Shown here: piece by piece, positions 3,578 through 9,435 of the stretch
How positions within the stretch are numbered: the stretch's first letter is position 1
How the letters are laid out: each line of letters starts with the position of its first letter
Source: Tissierellales bacterium
GTDB taxonomy: Bacteria; Bacillota; Clostridia; Tissierellales; Dethiosulfatibacteraceae
Reading direction: 5' to 3'
Length of the DNA stretch: 32,503 bases
Assembly (NCBI GenBank): GCA_016938195.1
Contig: JAFGVC010000113.1
Location: 1-32,503 of the forward strand
Notes under the pieces: generated by a model
What the model was told of the DNA's origin: nothing
What the model saw: the letters and a program-made list of their open reading frames with translations, nothing else
Databases searched by the model: none
Translations under genes and position numbers: made by a program

Positions 3578-5131
3578 TTACAAATCTTTTAATGCCTGCT
3601 TCAGCCTTGCAGACGAATCTTTCAAGCCTGTCACACTAGCAGCTAAATCCGTTAAAGGGATGAGGTCATCACGATTAATGTGCTCAACTGCAAATTTTCT
3701 GTTCAATGCCATCAGCTGCTGCAATCCCGTCGAAACTCTCTGAATATAAGAGTAAAGTCCAATAGCACCCGTAGACATCGAATTTACTTTACTGCCATAA
3801 AAAACACGAAGTTTTTTTATTTCTTCGAAAACATCTTCAACCGTGTTTCCAAATCTATCCAATTCTTTAGGTGTTTTTCCGGCTTTTATTAAATCGCCAA
3901 TTTGCTTGCCCGTCATCGCAGCCGCCATTGCAGCTCTTCCAATGCCAATCAAATTAATGTATGGCGCCCCTAAGGCCAGTCCTTTAAAAACATGGTCTTC
4001 CATCGAAAATCCACCGGTAATAGCTACTTGAGGCAATTCATAACCTTTCTCCTCCATCTTATGTAGAATGTCATATACTCTGCTCTCAAGTTCTACTGTA
4101 GGCAAACCCCACTCATCCATCATTCTGACAGGACTGTTGCCTGTCCCGCCTCCGGCTCCGTCAAAGGTAACGAGATCGACGCCTGAGCGAGAAGCTATTT
4201 TAAGAATCATAACCAAGTCCTCTACATCATAAGGTCCGGTTTTAAAACAAACACGTTGAGCTCCCATTTTCTTAAGTGCTTGTACACGTTCAGTCAAAAT
4301 TTCCATATCCCACATTGGAAGTTTCCCTATTTTTTCAAAAACCTGCCCAATGCCCTTTTTATAATTTTCTGCAATTTGCATGTCCGAAGGATCAGGATAA
4401 ATAAGATAACCCATCCTTTGAAATCTCAAGGCTTCCTCTAAATTTTTAACTCTTCCCATCCCCTGAATGCCCTTGGCGGCTTGTCCAAACTTTAATTCAA
4501 CAGATTTTACACCTAATGATTGAATAGCATATTCCAAAACGCCCAAATTTTCATCGTCTACATTAGCCTGAACGATAATATCTCCAAATCCTATATCATA
4601 TTCTCTAAAAGCCTGAACCATTTCTGCCAAAAGTGGAGAATGCATCACTCTGCCATCCTTTAAAAGAAGACCTTGATCTTTTCCGACAACATCCTCTCCA
4701 ATTACGACGGCAACACCAGCCAAAGCTGCACCGGCATAATAATCACGCCAATTTAACTTTGCCATAGCCGGCAAAATAATGGGAGCCTTCATTTTAATCA
4801 TGTTTGACTTCCCTAAAGCCGATGAGATGTTAACCTTTGGAAATGTTGCTTCATCTGAATCCTTTTGACAGCCCCATGCACCAAAAACTCTACCATTAAT
4901 GTTTAAGTGAGAAAAATCAAGAGGATAGTCCTTTTCTGATGCGAATTGATTAATGTCCGATTGATAGGGATAAATCGCTTCCGGGCCTCGGACAGCCGAC
5001 AAACCAATTTCACAACTACCGGTACAATTTGACGTACAAACCGAGCACATTCCCGAAAAGGGTGATGAATGGTCAGGTGTCCTTAATTTTGTATGCGTCA
5101 GAGCACTTCCTAAAGCTTTGCTATAAGACAT
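3578..5131 (-). CDS. FMN-binding glutamate-synthase-like protein with N-terminal 4-Cys cluster
   Basis: The 517-residue protein matches the FMN/synthase domain of glutamate synthase (GltB-type TIM barrel), as in stand-alone archaeal-type proteins. It has the glycine-rich phosphate-binding stretch FDGAGGGTGNSP, TGPYDVEDL and a late barrel motif ITGGFSMEDHVFKGLALGA. It lacks the N-terminal glutaminase domain of full GltB. The N-terminus instead has four cysteines at 29, 32, 36 and 40 (CxxCxxxCxxxC), which suggests a small iron-sulfur cluster. GGAGG six bases before the ATG supports the start. It follows the gamma-glutamyltransferase gene by 38 bases, so they form one operon. Amino transfer or a related FMN-dependent oxidation of an amino-acid-derived substrate is likely; the reaction is not proven. 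Confidence 0.8.
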   Translation of the reverse strand: MSYSKALGSALTHTKLRTPDHSSPFSGMCSVCTSNCTGSCEIGLSAVRGPEAIYPYQSDINQFASEKDYPLDFSHLNINGRVFGAWGCQKDSDEATFPKVNISSALGKSNMIKMKAPIILPAMAKLNWRDYYAGAALAGVAVVIGEDVVGKDQGLLLKDGRVMHSPLLAEMVQAFREYDIGFGDIIVQANVDDENLGVLEYAIQSLGVKSVELKFGQAAKGIQGMGRVKNLEEALRFQRMGYLIYPDPSDMQIAENYKKGIGQVFEKIGKLPMWDMEILTERVQALKKMGAQRVCFKTGPYDVEDLVMILKIASRSGVDLVTFDGAGGGTGNSPVRMMDEWGLPTVELESRVYDILHKMEEKGYELPQVAITGGFSMEDHVFKGLALGAPYINLIGIGRAAMAAAMTGKQIGDLIKAGKTPKELDRFGNTVEDVFEEIKKLRVFYGSKVNSMSTGAIGLYSYIQRVSTGLQQLMALNRKFAVEHINRDDLIPLTDLAASVTGLKDSSARLKQALKDL

Positions 5132-5169: not shown

Positions 5170-6780
5170 TCAATAACAGGCTACAGAACCGTCTGTCCGA
5201 GATTCTGTCCCTCCATATAATACCTTGCCATCCGCAATAATCATCTCTCCCCTTCCAAAAATTCCCCCTGAATTAGCAATCGACATTTCATGCCCTAAAG
5301 CTTCAAGAGCATTTACCAGATAAGAAGGAAAAGAGGGTTCTACCACAAATTTCTTCCCTTCCATCCATTGCCATCTAGGCGCATCCAGTGCCATCTGGGG
5401 ATTGAGATTGAAATCGATTAGATTCATAGCTACTTGAAGATGTCCTTGTGGCTGCATGTAACCACCCATTACACCAAAAGGTCCTACTGCTTCGTTATTT
5501 TTCATAATAAATCCAGGAATAATGGTATGATAGGTTTTTTTCCCGCCCTTTAAATAATTATAGTCTTCAGGATTTAGCGAAAAATCAGCCCCTCTATTTT
5601 GTAATCCTATACCGGTTCCTTCTACGACAATTCCTGACCCAAATCCCATATAGTTGCTCTGAATAAACGAAACCATATTACCCTCGCTGTCCGCCGTACA
5701 TAAGTAAACTGTACCCCCTGAAGGTGGAATACCCGCTTGATGATCTTTGGCAGCCTCTGTCATTTCAAGTCTTCTCATATCTGCAAAGGCATCGCTTAAC
5801 AAATCACGAGAAGTATAATCCATATATTTAGGATCCGTCACGTATTTTTTTCCATCTGCAAAAGCAATTTTAATGGCTTCAAATTGTCTATGAAACGTCT
5901 GCACATCATCTCTAGATTTAAAGTCAAATTTTTTAAGAAGATTCAGTGCCATTAACGCTACTATTCCCTGACCATTAGGGGGTATTTCACAAATGTCATA
6001 TCCCTTATAATTAACACTGATAGGTTCAACCCATTCTGCATGATAGTTAGCCAAATCTTCTTTCTTCAGAAATCCACCAAACTTACGTGAACATGCATCT
6101 ATGCGGTCGGCCAATGCTCCTCGATAAAAACTTTCGGCATTTGTGCGGCCTATTTCTTCTAATGCTTTTGCATGATTGGGCAATTTAACAATATCCCCTA
6201 CTTTGGGCACGACTCCATTAGGAATGAATGTTTTATACCATTCATCAAATGAGGAATCATTGCACTCTGCTTTAAAACGATTATATCCCTTTTCCCAATT
6301 CAAGCCTAAGGTTGGAGTTAAAGGGTAGCCTTCAGAGGCATATCTTATTGCCGGTTCCAAAACAACACTCAAAGGAAGTTTTCCAAATCTTTCAGAAAGT
6401 GCAGCCCAAGCTCCCGGTGCCCCCGGAACAGTCACAGGCGTCCACCCAAATTTCGGCATACTTTCATAGCCTTTCTGTTTAACCGCTTCTGCTGTTAAAT
6501 CTTTAGGCGCATTCCCACTCCCATTTAGCCCATATAATTTTCGGTCTTCTTTAATCCAAACAAGCGCAAAAGCATCGCCTCCAATACCGTTTGAAGTAGG
6601 TTCCACAACTGTCAAACAAGCTGCTGTCGCTATAGCTGCATCTACAGCATTGCCACCTTTTTTCAACATATCCAGACCCGCATTGGCAGCTAAAGGTTGA
6701 GATGTCGCCACCATTCCATTGATTGCGATATGTGTATTTCTGTTTGACGCGTAGGGTTGATAATTACAATTAAATTTCAT
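5170..6780 (-). CDS. Gamma-glutamyltransferase family protein, cytoplasmic (YwrD-like)
   Basis: This is an Ntn-hydrolase of the gamma-glutamyltransferase family, 536 residues. Markers are MVATSQPLAANAGLDMLKKG GNAVDAAIA near the N-terminus, EPTSNGIGGD, TVPGAPGAW, and the likely autoprocessing nucleophile Thr357 in SGGTVYLCTADSEGNMVSF, followed by GLQNRGADF and the late GVMGGYMQPQGH. No signal peptide is visible, unlike secreted GGT, so it probably acts on gamma-glutamyl compounds in the cytoplasm. I start it at the ATG at 6780 because GGAGGAGG lies just upstream; a longer frame to 6813 has no such site. It is first in an operon with the glutamate-synthase-like gene and is divergent from an Lrp-type regulator. 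The natural substrate could be glutathione, a gamma-glutamyl peptide or a related amide. Confidence 0.88.
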   Translation of the reverse strand: MKFNCNYQPYASNRNTHIAINGMVATSQPLAANAGLDMLKKGGNAVDAAIATAACLTVVEPTSNGIGGDAFALVWIKEDRKLYGLNGSGNAPKDLTAEAVKQKGYESMPKFGWTPVTVPGAPGAWAALSERFGKLPLSVVLEPAIRYASEGYPLTPTLGLNWEKGYNRFKAECNDSSFDEWYKTFIPNGVVPKVGDIVKLPNHAKALEEIGRTNAESFYRGALADRIDACSRKFGGFLKKEDLANYHAEWVEPISVNYKGYDICEIPPNGQGIVALMALNLLKKFDFKSRDDVQTFHRQFEAIKIAFADGKKYVTDPKYMDYTSRDLLSDAFADMRRLEMTEAAKDHQAGIPPSGGTVYLCTADSEGNMVSFIQSNYMGFGSGIVVEGTGIGLQNRGADFSLNPEDYNYLKGGKKTYHTIIPGFIMKNNEAVGPFGVMGGYMQPQGHLQVAMNLIDFNLNPQMALDAPRWQWMEGKKFVVEPSFPSYLVNALEALGHEMSIANSGGIFGRGEMIIADGKVLYGGTESRTDGSVACY

Positions 6781-6880
6781 TCTATCCTCCTCCTGTATTA
6801 TAAAAAATATCAAATTCTTATTGCTTAATATAATTAAAGACTTTTGTTATCTATATTGATATAAATATTGAAAATTTTCC

Positions 6881-6929: not shown

Positions 6930-7388
6930 ATGGGAAATTCAATCTTAGATGATATCGACATGGAAATACTCAAAATTCTTTCTTTAAATGGAAGAGAATC
7001 TTACATTGAAATAGGAAAGAAAGTCAATCTTTCACGTGTATCGGTAAAAACAAGAATAGATGCCATGATAGAACAAGGGGTCATTGAAAGCTTTTCAGTC
7101 ATCATTAATCCCGAAAAAACAGGTCAAACCGTATCTGTTTTTCTGGACATCAAAATCGTACCTGAGTACTTATACGGCATATCAAAGGAATTGAGCAATA
7201 TGCCATTCATCACCGATATTTATCACATGACCGGAGGTTCAAAGCTTCATGTTCATGCTTTGTTTATGGATAAGGAAGAGCTTAGTTCCTTCCTAGAAAA
7301 AAAGCTTTATGCAATGAAAGGAATTGAACATGTCAACTGTGATATGATTGTTTCAAGAATCAAGTGCAGAAAAGGAATAAGACCTTAA
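6930..7388 (+). CDS. Lrp/AsnC family transcriptional regulator
   Basis: The 152-residue protein has an N-terminal helix-turn-helix (DDIDMEILKILSLNGRESYI then LSRVSVKTRIDAMIEQGVI, about 5-50) and a C-terminal RAM effector domain (about 65-148), the usual Lrp layout and length. AGGAG nine bases before the ATG supports the start. It is divergent from the ggt/glutamate-synthase-like operon and may control that operon, the lctP gene downstream, or both. An amino acid is the usual ligand of the family; which one is unknown. Confidence 0.9.
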   Translation: MGNSILDDIDMEILKILSLNGRESYIEIGKKVNLSRVSVKTRIDAMIEQGVIESFSVIINPEKTGQTVSVFLDIKIVPEYLYGISKELSNMPFITDIYHMTGGSKLHVHALFMDKEELSSFLEKKLYAMKGIEHVNCDMIVSRIKCRKGIRP

Positions 7389-7446: not shown

Positions 7447-7682
7447 GTTGATTCATATACAATTAAAAGATTCTTCTCAAATTTCTTAAAATATTTCATT
7501 ATAATGTTGACTATCTAGCACCCTTAAGTTATATTATAATTAACAATATGACATTATTTGACTACATTATATCTTTATTTTTCTATTTTTGTCAACAATA
7601 TATCTAACAAAACATTTCAAAAGGAAAAATAGTTTCTATACTTCTTTAGAAAAACAAATAATACTAGAAAGGACCTTTTCTT
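7447..7682 (+). other. AT-rich gap upstream of lctP
   Basis: The intergenic space before lctP holds no recognisable gene or riboswitch. It is very AT-rich. TTGACT at 7507-7512 is followed at poor spacing by TATTAT/TATAAT-like sequence at 7532-7540, so a promoter here is possible but not firm. The lctP ribosome binding site (GAAAGGA) lies about ten bases before its ATG. Confidence 0.4.
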
Positions 7683-9224
7683 ATGCAAACTATACTATCA
7701 TTTACACCTTTGCTGATTCTGTTATCCTGCCTACTGATTTTTAAATTAACCACCAGTAAATCAGGTGCACTATCCGTAATAGCCGCTATTATCATTGCCT
7801 TTTTGTTCTTTGGAATGGACATTTTCGGATTAACCGTCGCCATGAGCAAAGGAATGTCTCTGGCACTTTACGTCCTGCTGATTATTTGGTCAGCGGTATT
7901 TCTATACCATCTGGTATATGAATTTGAAGCCATAGACGTCATCAACAAAAATATCATCATTTTCATTAAAGACCCTTTTACACAATTCTTGTTGCTATCC
8001 TGGCTCTTCTCTTCAGTATTGCAAGGTATAGCCGGTTTTGGAGTTCCGGTAATTATTGTCGTTCCTATTCTCATCCATCTTGGATTCAATCCTCTGCTTT
8101 CAGTTGCAGCTGTCCTACTAGGTCACTCTTGGTCCGTCAGTTTTGGTTCAATGGGATCATCGTTTTTTGCCATTACCTTAGTTACCGGCCTAGAACAACA
8201 AATTACCGGATATGCAATGGCTATTTTTGACTTTGTGGCCATGAATATGATGGGTCTAACTGTCTGCTATATTTATGGGAAATGGGAATACGTCAAAAAA
8301 GGATTGCTTTATGTTATCCCCACATCACTTGTCATGATTAGTGTTATGTTCGCAGTACTTTCATTAAATCTTTTATCCCTAGTAGGCCTAACAACCGCGC
8401 TATCCGGTCTAGTGACCATGTATATCATCTATGCTATCAAAGAAAAACCCGGAAAACCTGATGAGTTGTATGCCGACAAGCTAACCTTGGGAAAAGCTCT
8501 TCTTCCATACACGACCATCGTTGGATTATCCTTACTCTTTCAAGCTCTAAAGCTTGGTCAATACAGTATCGCTTTCAAATATCCGGCCTTTGTTACAAAG
8601 CTGGGTTATGAAGTAGCTCAACAAGCCTCCTATGCTAAAATCAAAATTTTTGGTCACCCAGCTCCCATCATAGCGATGTCCGTCATTGCAGCTATCATTG
8701 CCTATAAACGTGCAGGCATCTGGGAAACTGAAAAATTCAAGAATGTAGTCAACAAAACAATAAACAAAAGCATCGGAACAACCATCAGCTTAGTTTTTTT
8801 AATTACCATGGCTCTGGTCATGATGGATTCCGGAATGACCACGACGCTAGCCGTAAAAGTATCCGAAATCACAGGCAGATTTTATCCGTTTTTCGCACCT
8901 TATGTAGGCGTTCTAGGAAGTTTTATCACCGGTAGCAATACAAATTCTAATGTCATATTTGGTAAATTTCAAATCTCCGTTGCAACTGCTCTGGGCGTAA
9001 ACACCTATATCATGGCAGGATTACAATCTATCTCAGGCTCAATCGGAGTTAGCTTAGGTCCTACGACAATTTTAATGGCATCCTCTGCTTCAGGATTATC
9101 CGGTCAAGAATCAGAAATATATAAAATGGTCATCAAACCTGTCCTATTAACCGCTGCAATCATGGGAGTACTCAATTATCTACTGCTTGTTGTATTCCAG
9201 TTCACACTTGGAGGTGTCCTATGA
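7683..9224 (+). CDS. LctP-family (L-lactate permease type) transporter
   Basis: The 513-residue, strongly hydrophobic protein has about 12-14 membrane segments. It carries family stretches such as the SSVLQGIAGFGVPVIIVVPIL segment near residue 115, HSWSVSFGSMGSSFF, and the late MDSGMT and TGSNTNSNVIFGKFQ region. Members import lactate, glycolate or similar 2-hydroxy acids with protons. The protein is slightly shorter than typical LctP (about 530-560). It overlaps a tiny membrane-protein gene at its stop codon. The substrate here could be lactate or another short hydroxy acid; gene context does not decide. Confidence 0.85.
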   Translation: MQTILSFTPLLILLSCLLIFKLTTSKSGALSVIAAIIIAFLFFGMDIFGLTVAMSKGMSLALYVLLIIWSAVFLYHLVYEFEAIDVINKNIIIFIKDPFTQFLLLSWLFSSVLQGIAGFGVPVIIVVPILIHLGFNPLLSVAAVLLGHSWSVSFGSMGSSFFAITLVTGLEQQITGYAMAIFDFVAMNMMGLTVCYIYGKWEYVKKGLLYVIPTSLVMISVMFAVLSLNLLSLVGLTTALSGLVTMYIIYAIKEKPGKPDELYADKLTLGKALLPYTTIVGLSLLFQALKLGQYSIAFKYPAFVTKLGYEVAQQASYAKIKIFGHPAPIIAMSVIAAIIAYKRAGIWETEKFKNVVNKTINKSIGTTISLVFLITMALVMMDSGMTTTLAVKVSEITGRFYPFFAPYVGVLGSFITGSNTNSNVIFGKFQISVATALGVNTYIMAGLQSISGSIGVSLGPTTILMASSASGLSGQESEIYKMVIKPVLLTAAIMGVLNYLLLVVFQFTLGGVL

Positions 9225-9367
9225 GCAAAAAATGGCTTGCTCTAATGTTTATTCCAATATTTCTTATACTGTATTATTCGAGCAACAGTGGCAATACAGC
9301 AATAGGTCTTGTGGGCATATTGTGGTTCATATTTATCGCCATCGCACAATTTATAGTCAAAAGGTAA
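9221..9367 (+). CDS. 48-residue membrane protein translationally coupled to lctP
   Basis: This small gene starts at the ATG of an ATGA overlap with the lctP stop and has a strong GGAGG site (9210-9214) six bases before it. The protein begins MSKKWLALMFIPIFLILYYS and ends with TAIGLVGILWFIFIAIAQFI then VKR. It thus has two hydrophobic stretches of about 14 and 20 residues, joined by a short polar SSNSGNT turn, and basic ends. Coupling, the ribosome binding site and the following terminator make it very likely real. I do not recognise a family. A role as an accessory or stabilising subunit of the permease is inference from position. Confidence 0.75.
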   Translation: MSKKWLALMFIPIFLILYYSSNSGNTAIGLVGILWFIFIAIAQFIVKR

Positions 9368-9376
9368 ATAAGCAAC

Positions 9377-9395
9377 AAAAAAAGCCCTGAGGGCT
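9377..9395 (-). terminator. Terminator of the tctCBA operon
   Basis: AGCCC (9383-9387) pairs with GGGCT (9391-9395), with six T following on the minus strand. It lies 23 bases past the tctA stop. Confidence 0.65.
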
Positions 9396-9406
9396 CAAAT
9401 TGTTTT

Positions 9407-9435
9407 AATAAAGCCAATCAGGCTTTATTTTTTTT
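9407..9435 (+). terminator. Terminator of the lctP unit, overlapping the tctA stop
   Basis: AATAAAGCC (9407-9415) pairs with GGCTTTATT (9421-9429) around AATCA and is followed by eight T on the plus strand. The hairpin includes the tctA stop codon (9418-9420), so the two convergent units have separate, interleaved terminators. Confidence 0.8.

Follow-up and report, generated by a model that had tools for sequence, protein, structure and literature searches.

A small two-helix membrane protein encoded directly after a divergent branch of LctP-family permeases: a candidate accessory subunit

Introduction

LctP transporters are treated as single-protein permeases. In a window of 32,503 nucleotides from a Tissierellales bacterium (contig JAFGVC010000113.1, analysed over this whole stretch), the stop codon of an LctP-family gene is overlapped by a second frame of only 48 codons. 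The first-pass annotation of this DNA proposed that the frame encodes a hidden membrane protein, perhaps a transporter subunit or a regulator. Is the frame a gene, and if so, what might its product do beside a permease?

Precedents exist outside the LctP family. In TRAP and tripartite tricarboxylate (TctAB) transporters, the large subunit is paired with a small membrane protein, Q or TctB, which has four helices. SSS symporters, which belong to a transporter superfamily other than LctP, have small partners as well. In E. coli, CstA requires YbdD (65 aa) to take up pyruvate, and the available part of PMC5847655, which describes this, gives yjcH-actP and mctB-mctC as pairs of a similar kind. In the open-access PMC subset that we searched, which is not proof of absence from print, no small partner of LctP was found; L-lactate permease appears only in a proteomics table in the accessible portion of PMC7440758.

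The short frame and its product

The frame runs from 9221 to 9367 on the plus strand, and its predicted product is MSKKWLALMFIPIFLILYYSSNSGNTAIGLVGILWFIFIAIAQFIVKR. Its ATG begins at 9221 and the permease stop TGA occupies 9222–9224, giving an ATGA overlap. A GGAGG ribosome-binding site (9210–9214, plus strand) lies within the last codons of the permease gene, six bases before the ATG, and GGAGG precedes the small-gene start likewise in L004, L005, L006 and L023 (L numbers denote loci and G numbers genomes). The 48-codon frame, the overlap and the GGAGG site are thus all present in the sequence as first described. The "immediate terminator" of that description is roughly right: a terminator-like hairpin with a T-run does exist (9407–9429, plus strand), but it lies 40 bases past the small-gene stop. 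A second hairpin, at 9382–9396, has its T-run on the minus strand and would serve the convergent tctA gene.

AlphaFold2 (AF2), given seven aligned sequences, predicts helices at residues 3–8, 10–23 and 26–45 with a pLDDT of 88.6, a helical hairpin that agrees with the two hydrophobic segments noted at first pass. Both ends of the protein carry Lys/Arg and are, for that reason, probably cytoplasmic. No Pfam family at cut-off matched the window protein or 23 relatives, and no NCBIfam model at cut-off matched it or 20 relatives, in searches whose HMMER filters hide very weak matches. Even among the below-cut-off Pfam matches of the window protein and 23 relatives, we found none to DUF485, DUF997, DUF4212, DUF3311, the YbdD family, DctQ or TctB, which we take to be the Pfam names for small transporter partners. 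A sequence search of the PDB with the small family gave a best match at E 0.071, and a structure search with the small-protein model alone gave SemiSWEET as best match at E 0.5.

A homologous small frame lies just 3′ of 9/9 closest permeases (window counted). The ATGA overlap is seen in five of them, and in the others the frame starts 4, 6, 14 or 160 nt past the permease stop. Eight genomes of the same family, that of the window among them, include four with this permease, and each of these carries the small frame in ATGA overlap. Further close copies occur in UBA6096 (ATGA overlap), AS06 (6 nt after the stop) and AS08 (4 nt), and two more genomes contribute L185 and L184, with spacings of 14 and 160 nt. 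For the small gene, the 10 pairs formed by five close sequences show substitutions of 164:120:294 at codon positions 1:2:3; for the permease, five close sequences differ by 1060:447:3018. In L004–L005, the sole pair with unsaturated synonymous sites, the small gene has a dN/dS of 0.16 and the permease one of 0.04. By these sequence measures, the small frame behaves as a translated gene under purifying selection, freer than the permease. The first-pass annotation had named two findings that would tell against it, loss of the frame after LctP orthologues and an excess of non-synonymous change; the frame proved to be conserved, and the bias runs the opposite way, toward third positions.

A family of two-helix membrane proteins

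Related small proteins are 46–84 aa long, with two helices, and come from hosts in the Bacillota, Actinomycetota and Alphaproteobacteria. To assess homology, we used a set of 19,369 six-frame ORFs that excludes L031–L037 and L228–L243, which had been fetched through small-profile matches, and L002. When each member was left out of the profile in turn, 24/26 still scored E<1e-4, among them the window copy (7.4e-11); the weakest were L183 (5e-4) and L184 (0.11). A profile of 13 distant members, containing no window-type sequence, was run on the same ORFs (14,444 in an earlier run) and detected L004, L005, L006 and L185 (2e-6 to 9e-4) as well as four members of a third group (1e-8 to 4e-5), with the first ORF outside the family at E 0.46. 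This profile scored the window copy (0.085), L025 (0.24) and L023 (1.3) weakly and did not list L026 or L184. In the reverse direction, a profile of nine window-type proteins gave distant members at E 0.0039–0.16, with unrelated ORFs intermixed from E 0.031, among the matches listed. Profile–profile comparison of the window-type and distant groups scored 31.4 (probability 91.5%), whereas 180 column shuffles reached no more than 22.9. Matches of the third group had a probability of 93.5% with the distant group and of only 20% with the window-type group.

Two sequences stand at the edge of the family. Recovery of L030 (1.1e-4) required the profile to include its plasmid relatives. L029, from the Thermomicrobiota, is not counted as a member by homology, since it was not found at E<=5–10 by profiles built without it; it is placed by position and hydrophobicity alone. 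Taken together, sequence, conservation, selection and the AF2 model argue that the small gene is real, under selection and probably translated, and that its product belongs to a two-helix membrane protein family that carries no name as yet.

The small gene follows one branch of LctP

The window permease (7683–9224, plus strand, 513 aa) matches Pfam PF02652, the LctP family, with 221.2 bits over residues 1–500 (gathering cut-off 27). Against the NCBIfam lctP model TIGR00795 it scores 220.8 bits, under the cut-off of 341.15, and it sits outside the canonical LctP clade in both trees that we built. Hence the first-pass label "lactate-type" is doubtful. The second LctP of the window genome falls in the canonical clade, without a small gene.

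To see how far the association extends, we sampled LctP loci in the order, the class and the phylum, and added others from named contigs. ORFs with identical permease ends were counted once, which reduced 183 ORFs to 175; near-copies persist among these (e.g. L175/L176, L177/L178 and L173/L174). One permease search contributed, among the matches listed, 30 loci and 93 more that were fetched. The survey leaves out about two dozen further canonical LctPs and weaker matches (below about 227 bits). A related-locus search of the named contigs found no relative with the window permease alone and 9 loci with alignment A2; viral contigs searched with A2 gave no locus.

A small-protein match just 3′ on the same strand was found for 28/175 LctP ORFs, using the 26-member profile (L029 and L030 excluded from training). 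The count rises to 30/175 when both are included in training. The proportion depends on similarity to the window permease group: 9/9 at >=600 profile bits, 2/3 at 400–600, 14/21 at 250–400 and 3/12 at 185–250, while the profile search found a small gene after 0/130 ORFs below 185 bits. All 28 positives fall in one divergent LctP branch with support 100/100. In the first permease tree, 30/45 branch rows have the small gene (L029 and L030 counted); in the second, to which five plasmid records were added and from which L187, L177 and L176 were dropped, the figure is 31/45. No small gene follows any of the canonical rows (9 hand-picked rows in the first tree, 11 in the second). The distribution is therefore wider than the first-pass annotation guessed, covering several bacterial phyla, but confined to one LctP branch in this sample. 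A first coarse scan, which accepted any hydrophobic two-segment frame, was too loose (27/173 versus 7/173 in a reverse-strand control) and was replaced by the profile counts; it had also overlooked L180, L184 and L185, which were recovered by inspecting downstream frames.

Each tree has 45 branch permeases, of which 14–15 have no detected partner, and a profile search of both strands at these loci gave no copy (best L008, E 0.32), wider flanks being used for L071, L168, L181, L182 and L187. These absences suggest that the small protein is dispensable in some lineages. The presence/absence label requires nine changes on either tree, compared to about 18 with shuffled labels; one early gain and several losses would fit this pattern, if events occurred in that order. 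Several partnerless permeases of the branch (L028, L168 and L182) have unusually long branches in the second tree, as if constraint changed on partner loss; L029 and L183, labelled as having it, are also long-branched there. At L028, a soluble 62-aa frame (4623–4811) replaces the small membrane gene in the same ATGA overlap, behind a permease of 42% identity, and a pyruvate carboxylase gene comes after it.

Plasmids provided a further test, in which records were selected for their resemblance to branch permeases. In tblastn searches, L030 and L173 of the branch matched 85 and 199 plasmid records, and five records were examined. The top three, from Qingshengfaniella alkalisoli, Rubrobacter radiotolerans and Paracoccus alcaliphilus (two Alphaproteobacteria and one Rubrobacter), have permeases that fall in the divergent branch in the second tree and are annotated "L-lactate permease". 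Each is followed, after 10–23 nt, by a gene for a 64–67 aa protein annotated "hypothetical protein", so that the small protein, described as hidden at first pass, is only partly so: its longer relatives are already annotated. Among the 702 ORFs of the five records, the three small genes rank first with profiles free of close relatives. In the order just given, E values are 5.2e-6, 3.8e-4 and 1.3e-4 with the 13-member profile and 7.2e-6, 0.064 (the weakest case) and 1.4e-6 with the 26-member profile. The other two records, from Tepidibacter aestuarii and Bacteroides finegoldii, served as controls; their permeases belong to the canonical clade, with no small gene after either, and that of T. aestuarii adjoins a lactate racemase gene. 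Searches of the plasmids by tblastn with the window peptide (E<=1) and with the L167 permease (1e-30) gave no match.

Copies away from LctP

We searched 398 genomes with 26 small proteins and found 22 places at E<1e-10, of which 21 adjoin LctP. Since 18 of the 22 had been in the training set and another two are near-copies of these, this search mainly points to an absence of strong solitary copies. It was not exhaustive, as the G621 copy (L184, a training member) is unlisted. Copies in G678 lie at two contig ends, so LctP adjacency cannot be judged there. When 391 genomes of the class were searched with four window-type sequences, no member except the window was found; seven other rows at E<0.01 are weak (17–22 bits) and lie within longer frames. 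Two loci are worth recording for themselves. L240 (G753), the one of the 22 places that does not adjoin LctP, has a small-family match with no recognisable start and no LctP within about 4 kb on either side, apparently a decayed relic. At L239, the second copy in G680, the branch LctP is split into two ORFs about 1.5 kb apart, and the small gene after them is open.

Predicted fold of the permease

We modelled the L025 permease together with its small protein by reading through the in-frame TGA between them, using a 42-row alignment from which near-copies (L174, L175 and L177) were excluded and small-only rows, misplaced by MAFFT, were removed. The permease part is confident. It matches ArsB (10tp) with Z 23.9 over 401 residues, the DASS member NaS1 with Z 20.4, and the TRAP M chain of SiaQM (7qha_B) with Z 18.9 over 405 residues. 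The window permease and its branch are therefore predicted, from this homologue, to have the ArsB/DASS/TRAP-M elevator fold, which is a fold match and not proof of mechanism. A sequence search of the PDB with the permease gave no related chain at E<0.1. The small part of the model has block means of 47–74, with residues 514–520 under 50, and no interface is readable; among the matches listed, those covering it (rows 46–48 and 50) have Z 4.3–4.7.

What the small protein may do

Since the small proteins follow a single LctP branch in different phyla, "transporter subunits or regulators", the role suggested at first pass, appears to be the best-supported class. We favor the reading in which the LctP-type transporter of this branch has two components, the permease and, as its dedicated accessory subunit, the small protein, with a probability of roughly two in three. 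Translational coupling would ensure that the small protein is made alongside the permease. The hairpin would then pack on the permease, most likely on its static scaffold part, and this packing would stabilise or complete the permease, as Q does for TRAP; YbdD, likewise, is needed by CstA. That the hairpin is scaffold-like and required is a more tentative proposal, to which we give somewhat less than an even chance.

The likeness to known systems is partial in each case. The LctP branch shares its predicted fold with the M subunit of TRAP QM, but the window family has two helices and no DctQ or TctB profile match, unlike Q and TctB. Canonical LctPs (LldP, GlcA and LutP type) belong to the same Pfam Lactate_perm family, yet form a separate clade with the small gene after none of the rows examined. 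In CstA-YbdD, as here, a small protein is encoded right beside a carboxylate transporter (PMC5847655, available part), but the transporter family differs, and the small proteins scanned have no YbdD-family Pfam match. The same can be said of SSS partners (yjcH-actP, mctB-mctC and DUF3311 beside MctP), where a small protein lies beside a monocarboxylate transporter (PMC5847655 and PMC9100948, available parts); again, the small proteins of the window family lack a profile match.

The main alternative is that the small protein regulates the permease, as an inhibitor, activator or stabiliser like AcrZ, MgtS or MgtU, and is not a structural subunit. Similar-sized small membrane proteins do modulate or stabilise transporters, as described in the available part of PMC10710835, and the lack of a partner in some branch members suggests that it is not always needed. 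On the other hand, the window-type gene is coupled at the permease stop, and co-production of this kind would suit a subunit better than a regulator expressed on its own; we consider a regulator unlikely, at perhaps one chance in several. Still less probable is a membrane protein whose function, for instance toxin-like or stress-linked, has nothing to do with the permease and which merely rides in its operon. Hydrophobic mini-proteins are common, but a passenger would hardly be expected to track one LctP branch in three phyla despite differing neighbours, and 0/22 of the strong whole-genome matches (18/22 of them training members) is an intact copy that demonstrably lies away from LctP. Finally, an untranslated frame, whether an artefact of hydrophobic-biased sequence or a conserved RNA, is scarcely credible: chance two-segment frames do occur, as the coarse scan and its control illustrate, but the third-position bias, the low dN/dS of the one usable pair, the ribosome-binding sites and protein-level homology despite varied spacing from the permease all speak against it.

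If the small protein is indeed a subunit, a permease of this branch expressed alone may be inactive or unstable, and the substrate given in annotations may be wrong for the branch. An elevator fold with a two-helix accessory would also offer a minimal model in which to study the role of TRAP Q-type subunits.

Neighbouring genes and possible substrates

We read the flanks, of varying length, at 25 loci with the small gene (22 plus the three plasmids). The linkage between LctP and the small gene persists where the surrounding genes differ. A GGT-like hydrolase lies near the pair in 10/25 loci: the window, L022, L024, L193, L194, L195, L208 and the three plasmid records. It thus accompanies the permease and small gene across phyla (window, L193–L195, L208 and L244–L246, for instance), and several of these enzymes fall under the NCBIfam GGT cut-off. 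In the window, the GGT-like Ntn hydrolase gene (5170–6813, minus strand) scores 520 bits to PF01019 and 343 bits to TIGR00066, under the cut-off of 358. HpxW is itself a GGT-family enzyme, and we tried it as the identity of the window enzyme. This identity is not supported: the window enzyme scores 724 bits against 2nlz ("cephalosporin acylase") and only 121 bits against 5hft, presumably HpxW. An Lrp/AsnC-type regulator gene (6930–7388, plus strand) lies upstream of the window permease, and relatives are found near the permease in L022, L193 and L195.

At each of L204–L207, the permease and small gene have two or three 2-oxoacid oxidoreductase cluster genes nearby. In L207, the sole one scanned, the NCBIfam model for oxalate oxidoreductase matches the alpha subunit with 834 bits (cut-off 500), which makes the permease at these loci a candidate oxalate transporter. 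The neighbours at L199 are a carbamate kinase, an FdrA-like protein (416.9 bits, under the cut-off of 433) and an allantoate amidohydrolase. AllFGH (FdrA and its partners) makes oxamate, and the oxamate amidohydrolase HpxW releases oxalate and ammonium, according to the available parts of PMC11326118 and PMC5270733, respectively. With GGT-like hydrolases, an oxalate oxidoreductase and oxamate-pathway genes nearby, the branch might move small acids or amides of the C2 type (oxalate or oxamate, for example) and not lactate, a weaker inference than that of a partner protein, and weaker still for the window itself, whose GGT-like enzyme is closest to 2nlz. The broadest proposal, which we hold only tentatively and would not bet on at even odds, is that the window protein is a founding member of a family of two-helix subunits, minimal counterparts of the TRAP Q subunit, which make the whole LctP branch two-component elevator transporters carrying oxalate, oxamate or related C2 acids and not lactate.

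Between the Lrp/AsnC-type gene and the permease, the minus strand of the window carries a 12-of-12 match to a sigma-70-type promoter (7566–7595); no minus-strand frame of at least 40 codons starts between this promoter-like match and the GGT-like gene.
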